In this document: piece by piece, positions 7,675 through 32,713 of the stretch
Layout: every line of letters starts with the position of its first letter
How positions within the stretch are numbered: position 1 is the first letter of the stretch
NCBI GenBank assembly: GCA_031256445.1
Contig: JAIRQN010000043.1
Span: 1-32,904 of the forward strand
DNA: 32,904 nt
Direction: 5' to 3'
From: Treponema sp.
Lineage (GTDB): Bacteria > Spirochaetota > Spirochaetia > Treponematales > Breznakiellaceae
Position numbers and translations under genes: made by a program
Notes under the pieces: generated by a model
What the model was told of the DNA's origin: nothing
Database searches by the model: none
Seen by the model: only the letters and a program-made list of their open reading frames with translations

Positions 7675-9561
7675 ATGAAAGAAAAAAGGCAGAAAAAGGA
7701 AAATAATGGCAATGCAGTCAAATTTTCAATAGGCGCAAAACTTGTTATAATCATTACCATTCTTGTTCTTGTATCGCTGGGGACAATAACATTTTTAGTA
7801 TCTTATCTTGTAAGAGAAGACATGCAGATTACTGCGGAAGAAAATAATTTTGAGGTTAACAGGCGGACCGCGGCAGAGGCTGAATATACGCTTACAAATG
7901 TGCACTCCAGCGCGCTTGTGCTTATGCAGATAATTAACGCCGCGGGAGCCGAAAGCGAGCTTGCAAAACAGGCGGCGGGTTTTTTCTTTGACCGCAACCG
8001 GCATATAGCGGCGCTTCAGTTCCCGGTTCAGGGGCAGGACGGCAATCTGCTTATCAACGAACGTTTTTTCTTTTTACAGGAAATTGACGATTCCCTTGTC
8101 AATTCATTTTATGAAAATAACAGCGGCATTATAGAGCGTTCAGCTATTGGAGAGACGATTTTCCTCAATGCCACCGCTCATTTTGATTTTCACCTGCTTG
8201 CTCTTTTTTTCCCGGTACACGGAGGCGGGGGAGCTGTCTCCATTCTGTTTTCTCCGGAACATCTGAGCAACAGCTTCAATTCGGGAATTAATCAGTCCTT
8301 TTTGCTGAACGGAGACGGCGATGTTCTTGTTCATCCCGATTTTGAACTGGTGCGCACTGCGGCGAATATGGCGAACCGCGGTTTTATCCGCTCGATACGC
8401 GAAAATCCCGCAAGGAACAGGCAGGATCTGTATGACGACGAAGGAAAGCGGTACTTTATCGCTTATACCAAACTTGATACCAGCTCTTCAATCGCGGTTA
8501 CCAGCATTGAGTATAACAAGATTTTCGAAGGAATAGCGGCTACTACGCGGCGGAATTTGTATTTAACAGCCGCGGTTTTAAGCCTTTCAATTTTATTTAT
8601 ATGGTTCTTTTCCAAAACAATTTCTGTTACGCTTAAATCCCTTGCGAAGGCCGCAAGCAAAATCGAGGAAGGAATCTTTGAAATTGATCTGGAACCGAAA
8701 GGAAATGACGAAATCAGTTATCTGACATCCAGCTTCCTGAAGATGAGCGCCGCCCTTGGAATCTTCGGCCGGTTCACGAACCGCGAAATCGCCGTTAAAG
8801 CGATGCGGGGCGAAATTAAACCGGGCGGTCTGCCGAAGCACGCCACTGTCTTCTTTTCTGACATACGCGGGTTTACAGAAAAGTCAGAGAATTTCACAAA
8901 CATGTTCGGCTCCGGCGCTTCGGATAAAATTGTACACTGGCTCAATGAATATTTTACGCACATGATCGAGTGCGTGGAAAAAACCAGCGGTGTAGTGGAT
9001 AAATTTATCGGGGACGCGGTAATGGCTCACTGGGGAACCGCCTACTCCGCGGGAAGTCCCGCCAAAGACGCGTACAACTGCGTTAAGGCGGCCCTGATGA
9101 TGCGCGTCGCTCTTCATATTCTGAATAAAAAACGCAGGAGCGGGGATCCGGGAAACCCTCCGATAAATATCGGCTGCGGCATCAACACCGGTATTGTGAC
9201 AGCCGGACAGCTTGGATCCGATCTGCGCATGGAATACACGGTTATAGGAGATCCTGTTAATCTCGCGTCCAGAATCGAATCTCTTAACAAGCCCCTGGGA
9301 ACTGACATTTTAATTTCCGAAGACACATGGAACCTGGTAAAATATCAGTTTATAACCGAAGAGATGCCGTCTGTAACAGTCAAGGGAAAGGAAAAACCGG
9401 TCAGACTGTTTGCGGTAGTCAATCATGTTTCCGTCACTTCCGGACCAAAAACGTTAGCTGAAGTAAGAGAACTTCTTGGAATAAAGCCGCCGGATGTTTC
9501 AAATGCGGACATTAATTCAGAAGAAAAGAAATATAAAATAGGCGCGGCGAAAAAGCAATGA
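7675..9561 (+). CDS. Membrane-bound class III adenylate cyclase with extracytoplasmic sensor domain
   Basis: The 628-aa product makes cAMP from ATP in response to an outside signal. Order: TM1 (about 21-46), periplasmic sensor region of Cache type (about 47-295), TM2 (about 296-313), HAMP-like segment (about 314-367), and cyclase domain (about 385-580). Metal-binding Asp are D396 (FFSDIRGF) and D447 (KFIGDAVM). K443 is the adenine-selecting Lys; N529 and R533 (GDPVNLASR) are the transition-state residues. The other adenine-contact position is T522 (EYTVIGD) where class IIIa enzymes have Asp, which is the class IIIb pattern often linked to bicarbonate stimulation. The gene's stop overlaps the FecR start (ATGA at 9558-9561). 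Confidence 0.9.
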   Translation: MKEKRQKKENNGNAVKFSIGAKLVIIITILVLVSLGTITFLVSYLVREDMQITAEENNFEVNRRTAAEAEYTLTNVHSSALVLMQIINAAGAESELAKQAAGFFFDRNRHIAALQFPVQGQDGNLLINERFFFLQEIDDSLVNSFYENNSGIIERSAIGETIFLNATAHFDFHLLALFFPVHGGGGAVSILFSPEHLSNSFNSGINQSFLLNGDGDVLVHPDFELVRTAANMANRGFIRSIRENPARNRQDLYDDEGKRYFIAYTKLDTSSSIAVTSIEYNKIFEGIAATTRRNLYLTAAVLSLSILFIWFFSKTISVTLKSLAKAASKIEEGIFEIDLEPKGNDEISYLTSSFLKMSAALGIFGRFTNREIAVKAMRGEIKPGGLPKHATVFFSDIRGFTEKSENFTNMFGSGASDKIVHWLNEYFTHMIECVEKTSGVVDKFIGDAVMAHWGTAYSAGSPAKDAYNCVKAALMMRVALHILNKKRRSGDPGNPPINIGCGINTGIVTAGQLGSDLRMEYTVIGDPVNLASRIESLNKPLGTDILISEDTWNLVKYQFITEEMPSVTVKGKEKPVRLFAVVNHVSVTSGPKTLAEVRELLGIKPPDVSNADINSEEKKYKIGAAKKQ

Positions 9562-12251
9562 ACAAAGAGATTGCGGTTTCCGGCAGAAAAGACAAAAAGA
9601 AGAAAAAAAAACATGGACAGGTTTTGGATATTCTTGTTGTGATCTTTTGTCTTTCAGGAGTCGCGGTAAGCCTTTTTTTCTTCCAGAGAGATCTTTTTAT
9701 GACGCTGCGTTCTCTGGGAATAATGCCTGCCGGCACTGTTACGGCAAAATTCAATACGGTGCAGCGCCGTTTGGCGGACAGGGTGGTATGGGACAGATTG
9801 AACGCCAATTCTCCAGTATACAACGGCGATTTAATCCGCGTTGCCAGGCAATCCGGCGCGACACTTAATATAGACGACAATCACGTTGAGTTATGTGAAA
9901 ATACAATTATCCGCATACAGAAAGACGGCGGTATTCCGCAGATTGAATTTTTTACCGGCAATATAATCAGCATTGCGTCGGAAAATGCGGACAACGGCGG
10001 CCTTTTGCTTTCAATCGGGGATCGCGTTGTGGATATAAAGCCTGGAGCTGTGCTCAGCGCTTTTGTCGGCAGCGAAGGAATGACACTGCAGGTAAGCGAA
10101 GGAACGGTTCAGTTAATTCAGGACGGACAGATCAGGGAAGCGGCGGCAGGCTCGGTGATAGTTCAGGATACCGAAGGAAATGAATTGCTTGAACCCGCGG
10201 CCGCTGTTCTGCAGCCGCGCCCCAACGCGCGTTATCTTAAAACATCCGCCGCGCCTGTGAATGTTAATTTTGCCTGGAACAGAATCAACCTTGAAACGGA
10301 CGCGCGGCTGCGTCTTGAAATTGCCGAAGACAGAAACTTTACAAAGATAAGGCGGAATGTCGCTAACCTTGATTCTTCGGCGGCTGCCGGTATGGACGCG
10401 GGTCTTTGGCACTGGCGGCTCATGTATGAAAATGCCGTCCTTGGCGCCGGGCGTTTCAGCATTACAGACTCATACGCGCCGGAATTAATAAATCCGTCCA
10501 TGGAGCGCCGCATCCAGTACAGGACGGCCCTGCCGGAGATTCAATTTTCGTGGTCTTCAAGCGAAGAATCTGCGTACTATCTTTTGAATGTCTCCGAATT
10601 TCCGGATTTGTCAAATCCGCGAATCCATATGCAGGTGCATGGAACCGCGTACGTCAGTTCCGGCCTTGGACCGGGAACCTGGTACTGGCAGGTTCAGCCG
10701 GTTTACCCCGCTGTTTATGCCGGAAACGCGGTTTCATCGGCTGTTTCAGCTTTTCATGTTGAAAGGCGGGATTCGCTTCAGCCGCCGGTTTTGAATCTGC
10801 CTGCGGAAGACGGTATTGTCAGTATCGGGCAGGATGGAGCCGGTATTTCTTTTTCATGGACTGCTTTAAGGGAAGCGCATGACTATTCGATTCAAATTTC
10901 ACAGGACCCTGGGCTTCGCAATCCTGTAATCAATCAGACGATGCGTAATAACTATTACACATACGGCAAGGAAGAAAATGTTCTTTCACCGGGGCAGTAC
11001 TATTGGAGTGTTTTCTATTCCGATGAGGAAGGGAATCTGTCGCCGCGCGCTTCTGTGCGGCAGTTCACCGTTATGGATAGAACGGTCAGCCAGAGGCTTA
11101 TTTTTCCTCCGGACAGATACAGTATAGAAAAGAGCCTGGTTAAAGATATTAATTTTTCATGGAGTTCGAACCTGCATGTTAACAGGCGGTTCCAAATTTC
11201 CTCTTCGCAGGATTTTTCCGCTCTGGAGATCGATGAACCTGTTACAGGCGATTCCATTCAGGGTATTTCCGTTCCTGCGGGCGAATGGTATTGGCGCATA
11301 ACAGCCAGATTTGACGCTCTTTCTGACGAGTACCCTGCGCGTTCACGGCGTTTCAGCCTTGTTGAGCCGCCTCCCGTAATTGAACCTGAACCGCCGCCGC
11401 CACCACCACCTCCGCCGCCACCACCTCCGCCTGCGCCGCCAGTACAACCTGCTGTTCAACCTGTTGTGCGTCCCCCTGTACAGCCTGCTGTTCAACCTGC
11501 TGTGCGTCCTGCTGTGCAGCCTCCTCCCGCGCCGGAACCTGAGCCTCGTGTTCTTACGCTTTTATCCCCCGCGCATGGAACGTCCGTTCCGGGGCTTGCC
11601 GCCCTGCGGGAACCGACCGTATTCACATGGGAAACAACGCAGGACATCGGAAGATCCAGGTTTATTCTTTCACGTAACGCCAATCCGCTGCTCGGACAGC
11701 CTGAAGCGGAAATTGCAAATCCCGGCCGTTCAATTTCAGTTAACAGCCTGGCCGAAGGCCGCTGGTATTGGATCATAGAAGCGCAGACGAAAGACGGACA
11801 TCCGGTTCTTTGCAGCCAGCCGGGTCAGCTGACGGTGCAGGCTGTCCCGCTGCTGCCGCCGCCGGAAATAACGCGGCCGGCGCGCGAACACCGCATAGAC
11901 GCGCAGGAATTAAGAACCAGCAGGCAGGTTGAATTCCAGTGGTCAGAAGTAGAAGGCGCCAATTCATATATCCTGACCATCAGCAGGCAAACGGCGCATC
12001 CGGCAGGCGCGGCCGCAGGGCGGCAGCGAATTCTCCAGACAGAACCGTTAAGGCGGCAAAATTATACATTTAACGATCTTGGCTTGCTGGATTACGCCGC
12101 TGAATATGTCTGGCAGGTAGAGGCGTTATTCATCAATACCGAAGGAAAAATTGAACAGCGCGGCAGGCAGGGAGAAAGCGTATTTAAGGTTGAAGTCCCC
12201 CGTCCCGGTCAGGTGGAAACCAAAGATACGGGAGTTTTATATGGCTTCTAG
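9558..12251 (+). CDS. FecR-domain protein with Fn3-like repeats and polyproline linker
   Basis: The 897-aa product has a Lys-rich cytoplasmic tail (KKKKKK near residue 13), one TM (about 23-42), a FecR-like domain (about 58-215; GTVTAKFNTVQRR, LNANSPVYNGDLI and GSVIVQD are the hallmarks), then about six Fn3/Ig-like repeats. The repeats share a pattern: F-x-W, a Y-x-L-x-I-S strand and a final G-x-[YW]-Y-W-x-[VI] strand. Between repeats lies a 14-Pro run (residues 612-625) followed by VQPAVQP/VRP units. FecR domains sense or scaffold signals across envelopes. It overlaps the cyclase gene by 4 nt and the next gene by 11 nt, so the three are surely one operon. The ligand is not evident. Confidence 0.85.
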   Translation: MNKEIAVSGRKDKKKKKKHGQVLDILVVIFCLSGVAVSLFFFQRDLFMTLRSLGIMPAGTVTAKFNTVQRRLADRVVWDRLNANSPVYNGDLIRVARQSGATLNIDDNHVELCENTIIRIQKDGGIPQIEFFTGNIISIASENADNGGLLLSIGDRVVDIKPGAVLSAFVGSEGMTLQVSEGTVQLIQDGQIREAAAGSVIVQDTEGNELLEPAAAVLQPRPNARYLKTSAAPVNVNFAWNRINLETDARLRLEIAEDRNFTKIRRNVANLDSSAAAGMDAGLWHWRLMYENAVLGAGRFSITDSYAPELINPSMERRIQYRTALPEIQFSWSSSEESAYYLLNVSEFPDLSNPRIHMQVHGTAYVSSGLGPGTWYWQVQPVYPAVYAGNAVSSAVSAFHVERRDSLQPPVLNLPAEDGIVSIGQDGAGISFSWTALREAHDYSIQISQDPGLRNPVINQTMRNNYYTYGKEENVLSPGQYYWSVFYSDEEGNLSPRASVRQFTVMDRTVSQRLIFPPDRYSIEKSLVKDINFSWSSNLHVNRRFQISSSQDFSALEIDEPVTGDSIQGISVPAGEWYWRITARFDALSDEYPARSRRFSLVEPPPVIEPEPPPPPPPPPPPPPPAPPVQPAVQPVVRPPVQPAVQPAVRPAVQPPPAPEPEPRVLTLLSPAHGTSVPGLAALREPTVFTWETTQDIGRSRFILSRNANPLLGQPEAEIANPGRSISVNSLAEGRWYWIIEAQTKDGHPVLCSQPGQLTVQAVPLLPPPEITRPAREHRIDAQELRTSRQVEFQWSEVEGANSYILTISRQTAHPAGAAAGRQRILQTEPLRRQNYTFNDLGLLDYAAEYVWQVEALFINTEGKIEQRGRQGESVFKVEVPRPGQVETKDTGVLYGF
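11391..11535 (+). repeat. Polyproline and PAVQP/VRP tandem-repeat linker in the FecR gene
   Basis: DNA from 11391 to 11432 encodes 14 consecutive Pro using CCG, CCA and CCT codons. It is followed to about 11535 by imperfect copies of a 12-bp unit coding for Pro-Ala-Val-Gln or Pro-Val-Val-Arg. The repeat is internal to the coding frame and joins two Fn3-like blocks. Confidence 0.85.
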
Positions 12252-23712: not shown

Positions 23713-25500
23713 ATGCAGGGGCAGCCTTTTGTCAGAAACGGCAAGACCCTTCTTTCAGGAATTGATCCTGTCCGCCGCGCCGAACGCACAGCTGACGCTG
23801 TTTCTGTCAGCGACAGAACACTTTACTTTTGCCCCTCTGTCCTTTTCGGATACGGGCTTGCGCGGCTGCTGTCCCGGCTTGAGGCAAGCGCGCCCAATTC
23901 GGCGGTTCTGTGCATAGAAGCGGATCCGCAGCTTTACGAATTAACCTTGCAGAATATTGACCCTGCGTTAGCTGTAAATAAAAAACTGCGCATAACAAAT
24001 TTGCCCGCAACCGCGTCTGCTGACTCATCTGCGGCGGACGCGCTGTTGGCAAACGCGCCGCTGGCAAACGCAGCGCGGCTTGCTGCCATTGTAAGCGAAG
24101 CCTGGGGAACAAGGGCGTTCCGCCGCATTGAAACAATCCGTTTTACGGGAGGATACCAGCTTTTCCCGGAATTGTACGATTCTCTTTGTGAAGCGCTTCG
24201 CCGCCAGATTGCTTCAGACTGGAGCAACGCTTTAACCCTTGCTAAACTCGGACGGCTTTTTATCCGCAACGCGTTACGCAACATTTCTCTTGTTTCCGTT
24301 TTCCCTTCCGTATCGGAACTTTCTTTCGGCGATTGCCCTGTTCTTGTACTTGGAGCGGGCCCTTCCCTGGATGATACGCTCGATTCAATTGTCAATAGCC
24401 AATTATCATTAAACAGCAAGCGGAAAGAGAAAATTCCGTTTAAACCGGAAGATCGCCCTTTTAAAATTGTCTGTGTTGATACCTGTCTGGGGGCTTTAAA
24501 AGACAGGGGAATTACGCCCGATTTGGCTGTTATTCTTGAAAGCCAGCACTGGAATCTGCGGGATTTTATCGGGTGCAGGGACTGGAAAGCGAATGCCGCT
24601 GTGGATATTTCCGCTCTTCCGCTATCCGCGCAAATTCTTGGCGGCAAGGGCTGCCTCTTTTTTACGCCATGGACTTCCCTGCGTATTTTTGAAAGGTTAA
24701 AAGATGCAGGATTGCTTCCGGCCGCCGTAGAACCGCTTGGCTCTGTCGGTTTAACCGCGGTAGAGATTGCCCGCTGTCTTACAGGCGGAAAGATAATCTG
24801 TTCAGGGCTTGATTTTTCATTTACCGCTGACAGCTATCACGCGCGCGGAACGCCAGGGCACAGAAGCAAATTGAACGCGCATACCCGGCTGCGTAGTCTG
24901 GCGAATACCGCCGCGTACAGCGAAACCGCCTTTGCCGCGGTTTCAAAAACAGGCGTGCGCGTTTACGCAAACCCCGTTATGAGAAACTACCGCGATTTGT
25001 TTGAACAGGAATTCGGCTCCGACAGGCGCATTTTCGACATAGAAGGATGCGGGCTTTCTTTGGGAATTAAAACGCTCTCCATGAAAGAGGCGATGGAAGC
25101 GTTAAATGTAAATACAGAAGAGTTCCCTCAGAGACGCAAAGGCGCCAAAACCGCAGAGGGAAAAGAAATAAACAGCATTGATGATTTTTTTTCCTGTTCT
25201 CCGCGTCATGGCGGGAAGAATTTCGCATTGGACGCATTTTATAAAAGCGAGAAAAACCGTTTAATTGAGTTACGCGATATCCTTTGCGGCGAAGCGGAAA
25301 TGAATAACAAGCGGCTAAATGAACTTATTGACGAGTGCGATTACCTTTGGGCGCACTTTCCTGACCGCGCGGGAGACTTCGCCGCGGGAAGCGCCGCCGG
25401 CCGCAGGCCGGAGATTGACCTGCAGACGGATATTTCTTTTTTAAAGAGGGTGCGAATTGAAATCGATTCGATGCTGGAGTTAATCTCCCATTTCGTCTAA
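23713..25500 (+). CDS. DUF115 / MptE-like 'motility associated factor' protein
   Basis: The 595-aa product has a central domain (about 205-380) with VLVLGAGPSLDDTLDSI, FKIVCVDTCLGALKDRGI, a PDLAVILESQHW strand and ICSGLDFSFT. This is the MAF/DUF115 fold, related to 6-hydroxymethylpterin diphosphokinase MptE. In Campylobacter, Helicobacter and Aeromonas such Maf proteins are needed for flagellin glycosylation with nonulosonates. By analogy it may modify periplasmic flagella here, but that is inference. The N-terminal 200 residues hold a Rossmann-like stretch (VLCIEADPQLYEL). There is no Shine-Dalgarno. Its last 21 bp overlap the 3' end of the convergent MFS gene. Confidence 0.82.
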   Translation: MQGQPFVRNGKTLLSGIDPVRRAERTADAVSVSDRTLYFCPSVLFGYGLARLLSRLEASAPNSAVLCIEADPQLYELTLQNIDPALAVNKKLRITNLPATASADSSAADALLANAPLANAARLAAIVSEAWGTRAFRRIETIRFTGGYQLFPELYDSLCEALRRQIASDWSNALTLAKLGRLFIRNALRNISLVSVFPSVSELSFGDCPVLVLGAGPSLDDTLDSIVNSQLSLNSKRKEKIPFKPEDRPFKIVCVDTCLGALKDRGITPDLAVILESQHWNLRDFIGCRDWKANAAVDISALPLSAQILGGKGCLFFTPWTSLRIFERLKDAGLLPAAVEPLGSVGLTAVEIARCLTGGKIICSGLDFSFTADSYHARGTPGHRSKLNAHTRLRSLANTAAYSETAFAAVSKTGVRVYANPVMRNYRDLFEQEFGSDRRIFDIEGCGLSLGIKTLSMKEAMEALNVNTEEFPQRRKGAKTAEGKEINSIDDFFSCSPRHGGKNFALDAFYKSEKNRLIELRDILCGEAEMNNKRLNELIDECDYLWAHFPDRAGDFAAGSAAGRRPEIDLQTDISFLKRVRIEIDSMLELISHFV

Positions 25501-26836: not shown

Positions 26837-28642
26837 TCACTCGTCGCGGCTTTTAAGAACCGCCAGAAACGCGCTTTGCGGAAGTTCCACATCGCCGACC
26901 ATTTTCATGCGTTTCTTGCCTTCTTTCTGCTTTTCCAGGAGTTTGCGTTTGCGCGTAATGTCGCCGCCGTAGCACTTGGCGAGTACGTCCTTGCGCAGGG
27001 CGTTAACGGTTTCCCGCGCGATTATCTGGCTGCCGATTGCTCCCTGAATGGGGATTTTAAACTGCTGGCGCGGGATCTCATCGCGAAGGCGTTCGCATAC
27101 CTTCCGCGCCCGGTCATACGCGCTGTCCCTGAACACAAGCTGGGAAAGAGCGTCAACAGCTTTTCCGTTAAGAAGAATGTCCAGTTTGGCAAGCTCTGTC
27201 GGCTTGTAGCCGGAAATATCGTAATCGAATGACGCGTAACCTCGGCTGATGCTTTTAAGTCTGTCGTAAAAATCGAATAACACTTCCGAAAGGGGCATCT
27301 CGTAAACAAGCTCCACGCGTTTCTCGTCAAGATAGGTCATGTTGGTCTGTACCCCGCGTTTTTCCAGGCAGAGCGTCATTATGTTTCCAAGGTAATCGGA
27401 AGGGGTAATAACAGAAGCGCGGATGTATGGTTCCTGCGCTCCTTCTACGCGGCCTTCGTCCGGGTAGTCGATTGGATTGTCAATAAAGGTTTCTTCCCCG
27501 CCGCGGACGCTCACCTTGTATCTGACCGACGGAGCGGTGAAAATTACCGATTGATCAAACTCGCGCTCAAGCCGTTCCTGGATTACCTCAAGATGCAAAA
27601 GGCCCAAAAAACCGCATCGGAAACCAAAGCCAAGGGCGGCAGATGAATCTTTTTCATAGACAAGGGAGGCGTCGTTAAGTTTCAGCTTTTCCATGCTGGC
27701 GCGCAGCTCTTCGTAGTCGTTGGAGTCTACAGGGTAAATCGAGGAGAACACGACGGGTTTTACCTCGCGGAAACCGGGAAGCGCCGCACAGCAGGGGTTA
27801 TCAGCGCCTGTTACGGTATCTCCTACGCGGACATCGCTTACGGTTTTTATGCCCGCTATTATATAGCCGACATCTCCCGCGGACAGAGCGCCTGTTTCCA
27901 CAAGCGCGAGTTTAAAGACGCCGGCGGTTTCTATTTCATAAACCGACTCGTTTGACATAAAGGAAATTTTCATTCCTTTTTTTAACTGCCCGTCAAAAAG
28001 GCGCAGATGCACCACTACGCCGCGGTAGGGATCGTAGTGGCAGTCGAAGATTAAAGCGCGTAACGGGGAAGAGGGATCGCCTGAAGGATGGGGAATTTTT
28101 TGAACGATGGCTTCAAAGAGTTCATCAATGCCTATGCCCTGACGCGCTGAAACAAGCAGGGCGTTCTCTGCGTCCAGGCCAAGGTCTTTTTCAATTTGTT
28201 TTTTAACGCGCGGCACATCGGCGGCCTGCATGTCAATTTTATTTATAACGGGAACTATTTCCAGATTGTGTTCAAGCGCGAGGTACATGTTTGATAGCGT
28301 CTGCGCCTGCACCCCCTGTGTCGCGTCAACCAGAAGGAGGGCGCCTTCGCAGGAGTTTATTGCGCGGCTCACTTCGTAACTGAAGTCTACATGCCCCGGC
28401 GTGTCAACAAGGTTCAGCGTGTACTCAATGTCGTCCGCCGCCGTATAGGGAATTGTCACAGCCTGGCTTTTTATCGTAATGCCCCTTTCCCTTTCTATAT
28501 CCATGTTGTCGAGAATCTGATCTTTAAAATTGCGATCATCTACAAGTTTGGCTTTTTGAATGAGCCTGTCTGCGAGAGTGGACTTGCCGTGATCGATGTG
28601 CGCGATAATGCAAAAATTACGGATATGCTGCGTCTGTGCCAT
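26837..28642 (-). CDS. lepA: Elongation factor 4 (LepA) GTPase
   Basis: I set the start at the ATG 28640-28642, giving 601 aa, the usual LepA length (about 599). A longer frame from a TTG at 28678 adds 12 residues, but that TTG is the -35 box of the promoter. Order: G domain with [13 protein letters not shown] (G1), DTPGHVDF (G3) and NKIDM (G4); domain II; domains III and V; and the LepA-specific C-terminal domain ([20 protein letters not shown]). EF-G domain IV is absent, as expected. LepA acts on stalled or assembling ribosomes. There is no Shine-Dalgarno. It lies 78 bp downstream of the FliG-like operon. Confidence 0.96.
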
Positions 28643-28649
28643 AACAGCA

Positions 28650-28678
28650 ACTATAGCGGGATTATGGCGTTTGTACAA
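28650..28678 (-). promoter_or_regulatory. Promoter directly upstream of lepA
   Basis: On the minus strand TTGTAC (28678-28673), a 17-nt spacer and TATAGT (28655-28650) end 7 nt before the lepA ATG. The predicted start of transcription is at the ATG, so lepA mRNA would be leaderless. No Shine-Dalgarno is seen. Confidence 0.6.
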
Positions 28679-28720: not shown

Positions 28721-30583
28721 CTAATTGCTCCTGGGAACTTCAATTTCTCCTTTTTCTTCCAGATACATGGCAACAGACGATATTTTTCGCCGGGCTTCCA
28801 TAATATCGTCATGGCGCACAGGCCCCATATATTCCATGTCCTCTTTTAACATTGCGCCCGCTCTTGTTGACATATTATTAAATACCTTTTCCTTTACGCT
28901 TTCGTCCGCGTTATTTAGGGCTTTAGCAAGATCAAAGGAATCTACTTCCCTGAAAACTTTCAGGACATCTTTATCGTCCAGTAGAATAATATCTTCGAAT
29001 GAGAACATTCTGCTCTTTATTTCCCGCATCAGCTCCGGATCGTCATATTTCCATTTTTTAAACAGCTCTCTTGCGATTGAACGATCTGCGAATTTTAAAA
29101 TCGCGGCGATTGTTTCAATTCCGCCTGCCGTGAAGCGTCCGCTGGACAGCCACGCGAGAATAAACGCGCTTGTATTGGGATGTTCCTCTTTTATAAACTC
29201 CGCAAGACGTTCCATGTCGTCTTCTTTTACCAATTCGTATGGTCTGTTGAAAAAATCAATAACCTCGCGGCTCCCGATTGATTTTTCCAGTTCTTCTTTG
29301 TATTTGTTCTGCGTTTTTTCCGCTTCTTCCTTGTCGCATATAGGACTGGTGAGAAGATCTTTGAACTTGTCTGCGAATTTTGTGCTTTCAAATAATTTCT
29401 GAATTTCCTCCAGCTCTTTATCGGTTACAAAAGAGAGCAGGGCATGAACAAGAACGGCGGGATTTTCTTTTTTACAGATGCTTAAAACAGCTTCCTTCTG
29501 CATCAGTTTTAATCTTTTAATTTCTTCGTTTTTTTCAAACGTGATAAGGTTGGACAGTATAAGTTCTATGTCTTCAGGATACTCTTCATTGGCCGCGAAC
29601 TGCATGCCGTATTCAAAAATATCACGCGCCGCCATTTTTTGTCTGTCAATATATTCTTTTGACGCTGACAGGTCTTTATATTTTTCCATGAATTTGTACG
29701 CCCTGTGCAAAATGTTAGATGCAAGCGCCGTAAATTTCTTTCCCTCAGCTTCCAACGGATTGGCTTCTTCGAATTTATTTTCAGTAAAAAATTCCATCTC
29801 ACCAATATGTTCTTCAACAGCCTTTAATTCTGAATTGTCCAGGAATGATAATAATTTATGCGCCAGAAAATCCGGATTGTCTCCTCTTTGAATATAAAGA
29901 ACCGCTTCTTTAATTATGTTTATAAGTCTTCGCCGGTTTTCATCCTGTTCCAGTCCGGCTTTGTTGGTTAAAATTGTATCAATGATTTCGCAGGCAGTTC
30001 CGTCCACAACAAGGCGCAAACCTTCTTTTATATACTCATCGTCCAGGTCTTCCAGTTCGTCTTCCAGTGACAGAAGTCCCTCTCTCCTTGCCTTACAGGA
30101 AAATTTATACGCGATCCTTATTATATACGCAGTCTGTTTTAAAAATTCCGATTGTTCCATTGCCTCAACCGGTTCCTCAGGTTCCTGTTCTTCTTCCGTA
30201 TCGTCCAGACCGTCCAAATCCAAATCGTCATCCAACAGGCGGTATTCCAATGGGCGGCGTTCATGTTTATGCAGATGCGAAAATAATATAAGTGTAAATA
30301 CTCTGGTGTTATAGCCCGCCTGAATGTAAATGACAGCTTCTCTTTGGATTATCCCCAATCTTTTGGCTTCGCTGTCTTTTTCCAGATCGATCATATTGGT
30401 TAAAACATAGTAAATAAACCCGCTTTCAGCGCCGTCCAGTACGAGTCTTAAACCAAATTTTAAAATGCCCATGCTCTCTGAATCAAGTTCTTCGATTTCT
30501 TCATTCAGCGCGAGAAATCCTTCTCTTCTTGATTTTTGAGATAATTCAACCGCTGTCATCATTATTTTACTTAATTGATTCAT
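28721..30583 (-). CDS. Three MotA-loop-like modules fused to a shortened FliG middle and FliG C-terminal domain
   Basis: The 620-aa soluble product has no membrane span. Module 1 (about 4-105) and module 2 (about 143-255) each carry the MotA cytoplasmic-loop signature: SRREGFLALNEEIEELD (18-34) and ARREGLLSLEDELEDLDD (165-182), then G-L-R-L-V-[LV]-D-G. Module 3 (about 283-400) keeps the second half only. An acidic linker (117-143) joins modules 1 and 2. The FliG part starts with EEHPNTSAFILAWL (466-479), then jumps to AGGIETIAAILKFADRS, missing roughly 55 residues of a normal middle domain. FliG-C is at about 510-616, with MFSFEDIILLDDKDVLKVFREVD, MSTRAGAMLKEDM and GPVR. AGGAG eight bases before the ATG is the ribosome site. 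FliG-C is certain; MotA kinship is by motif. It may regulate the motor or be a diverged rotor part. Confidence 0.85.
   Translation of the reverse strand: MNQLSKIMMTAVELSQKSRREGFLALNEEIEELDSESMGILKFGLRLVLDGAESGFIYYVLTNMIDLEKDSEAKRLGIIQREAVIYIQAGYNTRVFTLILFSHLHKHERRPLEYRLLDDDLDLDGLDDTEEEQEPEEPVEAMEQSEFLKQTAYIIRIAYKFSCKARREGLLSLEDELEDLDDEYIKEGLRLVVDGTACEIIDTILTNKAGLEQDENRRRLINIIKEAVLYIQRGDNPDFLAHKLLSFLDNSELKAVEEHIGEMEFFTENKFEEANPLEAEGKKFTALASNILHRAYKFMEKYKDLSASKEYIDRQKMAARDIFEYGMQFAANEEYPEDIELILSNLITFEKNEEIKRLKLMQKEAVLSICKKENPAVLVHALLSFVTDKELEEIQKLFESTKFADKFKDLLTSPICDKEEAEKTQNKYKEELEKSIGSREVIDFFNRPYELVKEDDMERLAEFIKEEHPNTSAFILAWLSSGRFTAGGIETIAAILKFADRSIARELFKKWKYDDPELMREIKSRMFSFEDIILLDDKDVLKVFREVDSFDLAKALNNADESVKEKVFNNMSTRAGAMLKEDMEYMGPVRHDDIMEARRKISSVAMYLEEKGEIEVPRSN
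29384..30574 (-). repeat. Array of three MotA-loop-like protein modules
   Basis: Approximate module spans: 30269-30574, 29819-30157 and 29384-29737. Two more copies lie in the neighbouring genes at about 31826-32182 and 32324-32707. All five share an opening helix before R-[RK]-x-[GD]-L, then F/E-x-G-[LIM]-x-[LF], an I-L-[ST]-N/G-[LMI]-I turn, and a closing RLKxMQKEAVLxI-type stretch followed by N-P and L-x-SFL. They are diverged at DNA level, so this is old duplication. Confidence 0.7.
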
Positions 30584-30598
30584 ATTACTACTCCTGTA

Positions 30599-32200
30599 TC
30601 AGGCGGCAACAATTTCGCCTGTTTCTTCCAAATGGCGGATAACCGCGACGATTTTTTTCTTTGCTTCTTCGGAATCTTCCGGGCTGACAGAATTTAAACA
30701 TTCAATGTCTTCTTTTAACATAATGGCGGCTCTTTTTGACATGTTACTGAATATCTTTTCCCGTACCCGTTCGTCTGTATTTTTTAGCGCTATTGCCAAA
30801 TCGCCTGAATATACTTCCCGCAGAACCTTTTGAATTGCCCTGTCGTCCAGTATGACGATGTCTTCGAAGACGAATATGTAATACCTGATTGGTTCGATTA
30901 AATCAGGATACACTTTCTCCAAAAATTCCATGATACATTTAAATGTATCAGTTTCTGTCAGGCAAAGAATATCTGTGATTTTTTTAATGCCGCCCCTGAC
31001 AGTACATTTTTTGCCGAATATCGCAGAAAGATTTTTTTCTATACGGCTGATGTCTTCGCGGGAAATTTCCGCGACATCGGCCCGCATGTCAGGCGTAATT
31101 AATTTGCTGTCGTCCATAAGCGCGATGCGGCTGGCGACATCGCATTGCAGACGCGGCGATAATTGCTGAAGCATTATAGCGGCTTTTGGCGGTTCCAGAA
31201 CAGATAATATGCAGGCGATTGTTTTAGGGTGTTCATCATTCAGCATGTTAAGGAAGTTAACAGGATCTGTTATAATGAAATCAACCGGCTTTCCCCTCAT
31301 TACCGATAAAAGACGGCCTGTAAGCTCAACTGTTTCTCCGCTGCCTGCGGTTTTCTGCGCCGCACCCACTGGATGCGCCGCACCTGCCTGTTCATAAAGA
31401 TTTTTTGCCTCAGCAACCGCGTTTTGCCTTAAAAGATATGTTTTAAGTACTTTTTCAAATTCGGCGCTTTGCGCAGCGGCGTATTTTTTTCCTGACAATG
31501 ATAAAAGTTTTTTCTCCAGTTGTAAAACATTGCATATTAATTCCAGGTTTGGGCTGTCCATGACCGCAATGCGGTAAGCAATATCGCTTTGTTGTTTGGC
31601 AGGCAGATTTGACAGTATAAATGAAGCTTTTTTTGGCTCTATTGCTGCCAAAACATAGGCGATTGTTTTTGGCTGTTCATTGCGCAGATGTTCCAGAAGA
31701 ACAGATGGATCGGCGTTTTTTATACACTCGAACGGATACGCCAGAATGACATCTTCCTCCTGTTTCTCGCCTGTAGCATCCAGTTTGCCGCATTCGCGTA
31801 TTGAATTAAAATCTTCGATAATGTTTGTCTGTTCAAGGAATCCTTTTATCTCATCCAGTTCCGCCGTATGGAGAAGCGGGAACAGGCTATATAAAAATAA
31901 TTTAGGGTGAAGCCCTTTTTGAATGTGCATGACAGCTTCTTTCTGAATTTTTTTTAAAAGTTTTTCTTCCTTGTCCTGTTCCTGGCTGATTAGATTTAAT
32001 AAAATTTTTTCCAGTTGTACAGTTTCAATGCCGCCTGAGCAGAGAAGCAAACCGTATTCAAAAACATCCCTAAAATTTTTTCTGTCGCGGTTTATTTTAT
32101 TCATAAGAGAAGATAGATCGTTCCTTCTTGTGACTGCGCTTAACTCGTAAACCCTTTGCGCGATACACGCTGCCTGTTCTGTCATTTTCATTTCTGTCAT
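30599..32200 (-). CDS. MotA-loop-like module fused to two FliG middle-type segments and FliG C-terminal domain
   Basis: The 533-aa soluble product begins with one module (about 7-125; TRRNDLSSLMNKI is a degenerate form of the MotA loop and IQKEAVMHIQKG its tail). A FliG middle-like segment follows (about 150-235: NEQPKTIAYVLAAIEPKKASF), then an Ala-rich linker, a second and better one (about 303-400: DEHPKTIACILSVLEPPKAA, DVASRIALMDD), the GG linker (403-404) and FliG-C (about 410-531: YIFVFEDIVILDDRAIQKVL, MSKRAAIMLKED). Canonical FliG is about 340 aa with one such EHPQT motif. The torque-helix stretch looks intact. AAGAGGT precedes the ATG at about five bases. It sits 15 bp upstream of the 620-aa gene, clearly one operon. 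Confidence 0.85.
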   Translation of the reverse strand: MTEMKMTEQAACIAQRVYELSAVTRRNDLSSLMNKINRDRKNFRDVFEYGLLLCSGGIETVQLEKILLNLISQEQDKEEKLLKKIQKEAVMHIQKGLHPKLFLYSLFPLLHTAELDEIKGFLEQTNIIEDFNSIRECGKLDATGEKQEEDVILAYPFECIKNADPSVLLEHLRNEQPKTIAYVLAAIEPKKASFILSNLPAKQQSDIAYRIAVMDSPNLELICNVLQLEKKLLSLSGKKYAAAQSAEFEKVLKTYLLRQNAVAEAKNLYEQAGAAHPVGAAQKTAGSGETVELTGRLLSVMRGKPVDFIITDPVNFLNMLNDEHPKTIACILSVLEPPKAAIMLQQLSPRLQCDVASRIALMDDSKLITPDMRADVAEISREDISRIEKNLSAIFGKKCTVRGGIKKITDILCLTETDTFKCIMEFLEKVYPDLIEPIRYYIFVFEDIVILDDRAIQKVLREVYSGDLAIALKNTDERVREKIFSNMSKRAAIMLKEDIECLNSVSPEDSEEAKKKIVAVIRHLEETGEIVAA

Positions 32201-32257: not shown

Positions 32258-32713
32258 TTACGATTTTAATAAATCCTGCTTTTGCGCTCCTGCAGAATCC
32301 GCGTTATCCCAATAATTTTTAAAATAATCTGTAAATACCTTGTCCTTAAGAAGTTCCCGCGCTTCTTTTTGTTCGTTACCTGTCATTAATGAAAAAATCG
32401 AATTAAAAAGCATCCAGGAGTTGGTATTGTCCCTTATGCAAAGAACAGCTTCTTTTTGCATTGTTTTTAAACGTTTTGCCGTTTCGTCCTGTTTACGGCT
32501 AATTATGCCGGATAATATATTGTTTATATTTGCGGAATCTACGCCCTCTGATGCCAGTTTAATGCCGAATTCGAAGATATCCAGGCGTTTTAACCCCTCC
32601 GCTCTAATGTCATCGCCAATTTCCCCAAGCCCCTGTTTTCTTCCCTTTAAATTAATAGTATATGCCCTCTGTACTATGTAAGCAGCCTGCCGAACAAAGT
32701 CCTTCTGTTCCAT
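32258..32713 (-). CDS. Stand-alone MotA-loop-like module protein
   Basis: The 151-aa soluble product consists of one module (about 3-130) and a short polar tail. GRKQGLGEIGDDIRAEGLK takes the place of the MotA loop signature, FEFGIKLASEGVD follows it, and RLKTMQKEAVLCI is nearly the same as in the two larger proteins. There is no FliG domain, no signal and no membrane span. It is the first gene of the leftward operon; AAAGGGG about six bases before the ATG is the ribosome site. By itself the family would be hard to recognise; it is assigned through the neighbouring copies. It may be a regulator or a partner of the two FliG-like proteins. Confidence 0.72.
   Translation of the reverse strand: MEQKDFVRQAAYIVQRAYTINLKGRKQGLGEIGDDIRAEGLKRLDIFEFGIKLASEGVDSANINNILSGIISRKQDETAKRLKTMQKEAVLCIRDNTNSWMLFNSIFSLMTGNEQKEARELLKDKVFTDYFKNYWDNADSAGAQKQDLLKS

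Follow-up and report, generated by a model that had tools for sequence, protein, structure and literature searches.

To our knowledge, known flagellar motors bring MotA and FliG into contact in one way only, with a membrane ion channel that presses on the C-ring. The window analysed here is a stretch of 32,904 nucleotides from Treponema sp. (contig JAIRQN010000043.1, positions 1 to 32,904 of the forward strand). It contains a reading frame in which both contact faces are cut out and placed on one soluble chain, resembling a construct that structural biologists have built. What is this protein, and what might it do? A sequence-only reading had proposed that stator modules and a rotor domain are joined here, as a motor brake, clutch, stator competitor or rotor variant.

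Domains of the 620-residue chain

The protein and its parts, in window coordinates, are:

28721..30583, minus strand: 620-aa protein with three soluble MotA modules, a FliG_M remnant and FliG_C; ATG start
30233..30583, minus strand: module 1 (residues 1–117); Arg90-equivalent kept, Glu98-equivalent is Asn
29801..30160, minus strand: module 2 (residues 142–261), nearest to native MotA; Arg90- and Glu98-equivalents kept
29387..29746, minus strand: module 3 (residues 280–399), diverged; interface charges lost
29138..29245, minus strand: FliG middle-domain remnant (residues 447–482) with EEHPNT, resembling the EHPQR motif; E = 1.5e-5
28727..29131, minus strand: FliG_C (residues 485–619); Pfam E = 5e-34

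A ribosome-site-like sequence, AGGAGTAG, lies upstream of the reading frame. Four segments of the protein align with the NCBIfam MotA profile NF005997, with a whole-protein E of 3.4e-28. In a hydropathy scan over 19 residues the highest mean is 1.2, compared with 2.3 in MotA of the same genome, and no membrane helix is found. The four transmembrane helices and ion channel of a MotA stator subunit are missing, as the earlier reading had said of the helices, and the protein should therefore have neither an ion channel nor a MotB partner. Neither PF01618 nor a c-di-GMP-binding domain was found in a Pfam search.

The nature of the modules is seen most directly by comparison with MotA of the same genome (263 aa, contig C26). 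A module matches MotA residues 78–137, the cytoplasmic loop between TM2 and TM3, with i-E = 1e-15, and residues 218–259, the tail after TM4, with i-E = 3.5e-8 (both searches against a single target). MotA residues 138–217, within which TM3 and TM4 lie, have no counterpart in the module in this comparison. The module is thus the entire cytoplasmic domain of MotA, loop and C-terminal tail, minus the TM3–TM4 hairpin. Taken singly, module 2 matches NF005997 with E = 1.3e-18 and module 1 with E = 1.8e-11. Module 3 alone gives no match to NCBIfam MotA; it matches a module profile with E = 4e-44 (the profile was built with module 3 included), and its tail matches MotA by BLAST with E = 0.01. That profile was made from nine copies from the same genome, those of the window included, and its E-values for these copies are generous by construction. 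The sequence-only reading had counted two MotA-like modules. Their identity as MotA is borne out, but there are three, the third being too diverged for single-profile MotA matches. In PDB searches MotA ranks first both for module 2 (8ucs and 6ysf at 6e-14) and for the module profile (7e-15).

The folds agree with these assignments. An AlphaFold2 model of the 620-aa protein, from an alignment of only 10 rows, has a mean pLDDT of 74 and pTM of 0.40. Module 1 of the model superimposes on MotA 9lu9_B with Z = 16.6 (rmsd 1.4 over 102 residues), module 2 on MotA 8ucs_C with Z = 17.9, and residues 486–618 on FliG 4fhr_B with Z = 17.8, while unrelated rows reach Z ≤ 5.2. The MotA cytoplasmic fold is confirmed separately for modules 1 and 2 only. 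A chance resemblance of short charged helices was rejected because two separate MotA regions match in the correct order and the folds match. Membership of an unrelated helical family was also considered; only MotA and FliG stand clearly above background in the fold searches, where absence of a match does not by itself exclude other families. The refuting condition set with the sequence-only reading, no MotA match for modules 1 and 2 or a match to such a family, was thus checked by profile and fold searches, and the reading withstood it.

At the other end of the chain the FliG_C domain is complete, as had been stated from the sequence. The remainder of FliG is largely missing. FliG_N was not found by Pfam or profile searches, and FliG_M is reduced to residues 447–482, with complete copies in the 533-aa paralogue described below. 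The FliG profile TIGR00207 matches the protein with E = 3.6e-42 and 144.9 bits, below its cut-off of 226.7 bits. We define a soluble-MotA-module/FliG_C family by a MotA cytoplasmic domain free of transmembrane helices and a FliG_C domain on one chain, and the 620-aa protein has both. Profile and fold searches agree, and the chain is almost certainly a soluble chimera that unites both halves of the torque interface, with three contiguous MotA cytoplasmic domains lacking the TM3–TM4 hairpin and a C-terminal FliG_C.

Paralogues, orthologue and distribution

Three further genes of the window lie beside the chimera, two paralogues upstream and lepA downstream:

30599..32200, minus strand: 533-aa paralogue with one soluble MotA module, two FliG_M domains and FliG_C
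31829..32200, minus strand: soluble MotA module of the 533-aa paralogue
30602..30994, minus strand: FliG_C of the 533-aa paralogue; charges K/R/E/D/S
32258..32713, minus strand: 151-aa paralogue, a single soluble MotA module
26837..28678, minus strand: lepA, directly downstream; a conserved neighbour outside the system

The 151-aa, 533-aa, 620-aa and lepA genes follow one another on one strand, separated by 57, 15 and 42 bases, and are likely to form a single operon. The contig ends 191 bases ahead of the 151-aa gene. A second species of the genus, G027, has an orthologue that adjoins the same lepA, MFS and PF01973 genes and shows 55% identity across 320 residues. From a dN of 0.35 and a dS of about 2 (saturated), the ratio dN/dS is about 0.18, which indicates that the gene is under purifying selection. 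The PF01973 (MptE-like) protein lies at 23713–25500 of the window, and its synteny near the chimera is kept in G027; the family presumably includes the Maf flagellin-modification proteins. A protein with HAMP and class III adenylate/guanylate cyclase domains is encoded at 7675–9561.

Might the chain be no more than pseudogene fragments of motA and fliG, fused by chance or by misassembly? The genome is a draft of 107 contigs, and the FliG_M piece is eroded. However, the frame is intact over 620 codons, the syntenic orthologue has the low dN/dS ratio given above, both paralogues are intact, and the same combination is present in many independent genomes, complete or named assemblies included. 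Such an origin is extremely improbable. A scan of the genome contigs with a segment of the window gave no match, and PADLOC gave only a weak match (E = 0.02).

The same genome has the canonical motor genes, with FliG on contig C35 (beside genes that read as fliF, fliH and fliI) and motA paired with motB on C26. It also has other module genes. On C107 a module gene directly follows a FliG_C-only gene, on C1 a gene has two modules and a MORN repeat, and on C57 a module is fused to Sel1/TPR repeats. The C57 gene (7317–9509 of locus L010, plus strand) also encodes EIDQLL/EIDALL motifs, and it adjoins a gene (9520–11184, plus strand) for a protein in which Sel1/TPR repeats are joined to a FliM domain (Pfam 3e-33). 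Among 4101 ORFs, FliM-type EIDALL motifs are elsewhere found almost solely in the N-termini of FliM/FliN-like proteins.

Within the genus, modules distinct from MotA were found at high score in 13 of the 40 genomes inspected, many of which are incomplete. A wider survey covered 393 sampled spirochaete genomes. Single chains with a module and FliG_C occur in G231, G272, G154 and G137 (family f21), G223 (f55), G244 (f34), G271 (f52), G343 (f17), G128 (twice) and G216 (f42), in addition to the genus itself. In G264 (f1) FliG_C, leucine-rich repeats (LRR) and two modules are on one chain. These chains come from at least seven spirochaete families among the genomes sampled. In family f3 (G243 and G324) there are module proteins with no FliG_C on the chain. 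The module family is therefore rare, patchy and phylum-wide, previously unrecognised and extending well beyond the 620-aa gene. Among the 33 module genes read, ten encode FliG_C on the same chain, and six others have a FliG_C gene on their own strand less than 200 bases away. A location in flagellar operons was sought, and most module genes lie outside them. In spirochaete genomes with no MotA or FliG match there is no module match either, a weak comparison given the rarity of modules.

Repeated independent loss of TM3–TM4 was also considered, and a quick unconstrained tree required three changes. A tree with all modules as one clade scored better (AU p = 0.85), in an alignment where the MotA rows are mostly loop columns and the resolution is weak; a single origin for all modules is not rejected by these sequences.

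The compact members consist of a single module and FliG_C. An AlphaFold2 model of one of them (L174, 250 aa, from a MAG labelled Treponema sp.) has a mean pLDDT of 87 and pTM of 0.54. Both domains are above 90 in most blocks, and the linker is of low confidence (residues 126–132 and 138–150); together with the pTM this is consistent in the model with two independent domains. Module residues 8–122 superimpose on residues 75–259 of MotA in 8ucs with Z = 16.3 (rmsd 2.0, 110 residues), and FliG_C is matched with Z about 17. The first unrelated row is at 5.6. Over the fold searches of this model and of the 620-aa protein, the FliG middle domain 4fq0 stands apart from the background at 7.0.

Where records with modules carry a name they are spirochaete bins, and several of them bear the label Treponema. 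Their isolate series presumably comes from termite guts, which suggests the same source for the window. One module–FliG_C fusion (L177, 3268–4209) is in a bin labelled Candidatus Fibrimonas termitidis (Fibrobacterota), and reflects either contamination in binning or transfer between phyla. Three FliG_C-only proteins of 160–183 aa (L009 9230–9721, L047 1785–2309 and L048 8016–8564) share similar N-terminal segments of 60–85 residues with no Pfam match, and each of their genes shares a few bases with the beginning of a single-module gene. In family f3, locus L122 (6085–8911) has three soluble MotA module proteins in tandem. Two of these have EIDALL/EIDELL-like C-terminal tails and one has a weak DNA-clamp-like N-terminus (Pfam E = 0.008).

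Interface residues and possible action at the motor

E. coli residue numbers are used here for reference; the sequences behind them were checked for internal consistency only. The Arg90 position holds arginine in 37 of 49 modules and the Glu98 position an acidic residue, Glu or Asp, in 36 of them, compared with 112 of 112 MotA loops for each. When the 124 module columns are ranked by conservation (thinned at 70% identity) these two stand 10th and 22nd, and thus appear well kept, short of the very top. Within the 620-aa protein both charges are present in module 2, only the arginine in module 1, and neither in module 3. On the FliG side, the torque-helix residues K264, R281, D288, D289 and R297 correspond to N, R, E, D and R in the 620-aa protein, and to K, R, E, D and S in the 533-aa paralogue. 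K264 or R297 is lost in several compact relatives outside the genus. As judged from the alignments, the charges of both faces are mostly kept.

Some loss of charges, and the scattering of the genes outside flagellar operons, would be expected if the module and the FliG_C fold had been taken over as protein-interaction partners in some process other than that of flagella. Conservation of most interface charges argues against this, as do the combination of modules with FliM and FliG parts and, weakly, the lack of module matches in spirochaete genomes without MotA or FliG. We regard such reuse as quite improbable.

We estimate a probability of about one half that the 620-aa protein works on the flagellar motor by mimicking the stator–rotor interface. 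Two modules of one chain, most likely 1 and 2, would form a soluble pincer that grips FliG_C, in the manner of two neighbouring MotA subunits of a stator. Tethered by a flexible linker, the FliG_C of the chain could itself be held by a MotA pincer or by the pincer of the same chain. With the interface occupied or bridged in this way torque might be braked, unclutched or tuned, possibly in only one set of motors. We infer all four steps, that is formation of the pincer, binding to the native motor, an effect on torque and a controlling signal. In a cryo-EM study of an engineered MotA–linker–FliG_C fusion, docking of FliG_C is confined to sites where two MotA cytoplasmic domains stand close together (PMC11302681). 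The known brake YcgR binds MotA and FliG, and in its c-di-GMP-bound form has been proposed to block or bridge the contact between stator and rotor through them (PMC10140304).

The presence of canonical MotA/MotB and FliG in the same genome favours action as an interface mimic. Several observations count against it: the charges lost in module 3 and the Asn in place of Glu98 in module 1, the absence of torque-helix charges from FliG_C of some compact relatives, the location of most genes outside flagellar operons, and the fusions of some modules to the repeat domains described below. None of the data conflict with the original proposal of a brake, clutch, stator competitor or rotor variant, which is strengthened by the conservation of the interface charges and the recurrent linkage of module and FliG_C.

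The main rival is that the FliG_C proteins, above all the 533-aa paralogue, are accessory rotor parts that join the C-ring of some motors, for example those at one pole, with the modules of the same chain serving to cover or cushion the torque helix. FliG_N binds FliF and FliG_M binds FliM, and two FliG_M domains are kept in the 533-aa protein. Additional FliG and FliM pairs in other genomes of the genus also favour this, including one 1.6 kb from a module gene. These pairs are at L128 6480–9058, L058 3663–6274 and L059 4587–6878, in three species, that of L128 being the one close to a gene with two soluble MotA modules. Against it, FliG_N and a complete FliG_M are missing from the 620-aa protein and the compact relatives, and a rotor part would leave the module-only genes unexplained; on balance we think it unlikely. 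Spirochaetes have motors at two cell ends that turn in opposite senses. The opposite rotation of the ends is unexplained, and FliG1 of Borrelia localises asymmetrically (PMC7225975), which could also be read in favour of accessory rotor parts. For both these reasons regulators specific to particular motors are of direct interest.

Some proteins join modules to TPR, Sel1, LRR, MORN or DUF4116 repeats, a pattern that suggests use as adaptors. In a complete genome of 4.06 Mb in the same family, locus L121 (2602–13189) encodes two similar 1027-aa proteins with modules and DUF4116 repeats, and an 805-aa protein with FliG_C, LRR and two modules. The module might accordingly be a homing tag that brings TPR, Sel1, LRR, MORN or FliM pieces to FliG or to the cell pole with no direct effect on torque, the window protein being one member of the set. 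The position of modules N-terminal to Sel1/TPR and DUF4116 repeats, the FliG_C–LRR–two-module relative and the FliM-type EIDALL motifs in module proteins all fit such docking. Yet the window protein has no cargo domain other than FliG_C, and we consider that it is improbably a docking adaptor.

The interface mimic leads to a wider proposal, which we regard as rather doubtful. Spirochaetes may have a separate class of motor regulators made from the motor's own parts, with soluble stator pincers that grip rotor domains and rotor domains that load native stators. A cytoplasmic stator–rotor pair acting in the absence of ion flow might hold single motors locked, set them free or bias them, and might in this way help the two cell ends to rotate in opposite senses. 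Because the two flagellar bundles must turn oppositely, individual motor control in spirochaetes is an open question, for which the chimera would be a testable candidate. It would also be a natural soluble stator–rotor complex that could be crystallised.

Relation to known proteins

With the stator subunits MotA, PomA and MotP the modules share the fold, the Arg90/Glu98 loop and the C-terminal tail; by contrast the 620-aa protein has no membrane helices and carries three copies per chain. With FliG, including FliG1 and FliG2 of spirochaetes, it shares FliG_C and most of the torque-helix charges, but it lacks FliG_N, has only a fragment of FliG_M and scores under the TIGR00207 cut-off. The engineered fusion of 8ucs (PMC11302681), with which the stator–rotor interface was solved, has the same pairing of a MotA cytoplasmic domain, a flexible linker and FliG_C. 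That protein was made by hand in membrane-embedded MotA5B2, whereas the natural chain is soluble. The YcgR brake and the EpsE clutch are likewise soluble proteins of the stator–rotor interface, where action of the 620-aa protein is only proposed, and their folds (PilZ/YcgR-N and glycosyltransferase-like, respectively) are unrelated to it.

No natural fusion of MotA with FliG_C is described in the open-access PMC papers searched, in line with the earlier reading, which knew of no description of the architecture. The nearest named relative is the uncharacterised LIC10244 family of Leptospira (NCBIfam NF047717, ‘PerRA/PerRB upregulated protein’). This is a single compact unit of about 250 aa whose function is uncharacterised, and the papers searched give no derivation from MotA or FliG. 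Compact module–FliG_C relatives match NF047717 at 1e-12 to 1e-16, below its curated cut-off of 475 bits, one of them over profile positions 9–241 of 252. The 620-aa protein itself gave no match to NF047717 in the NCBIfam search. Given the matches of the compact relatives, once over nearly the whole profile, the LIC10244 family is probably a divergent member of the module–FliG_C family, and action as an interface mimic, if correct, would suggest a role for it. LIC10244 is a hypothetical protein predicted to be cytoplasmic, and is among the genes raised in a perRA/perRB double mutant, by 6.61-fold (PMC8638967).
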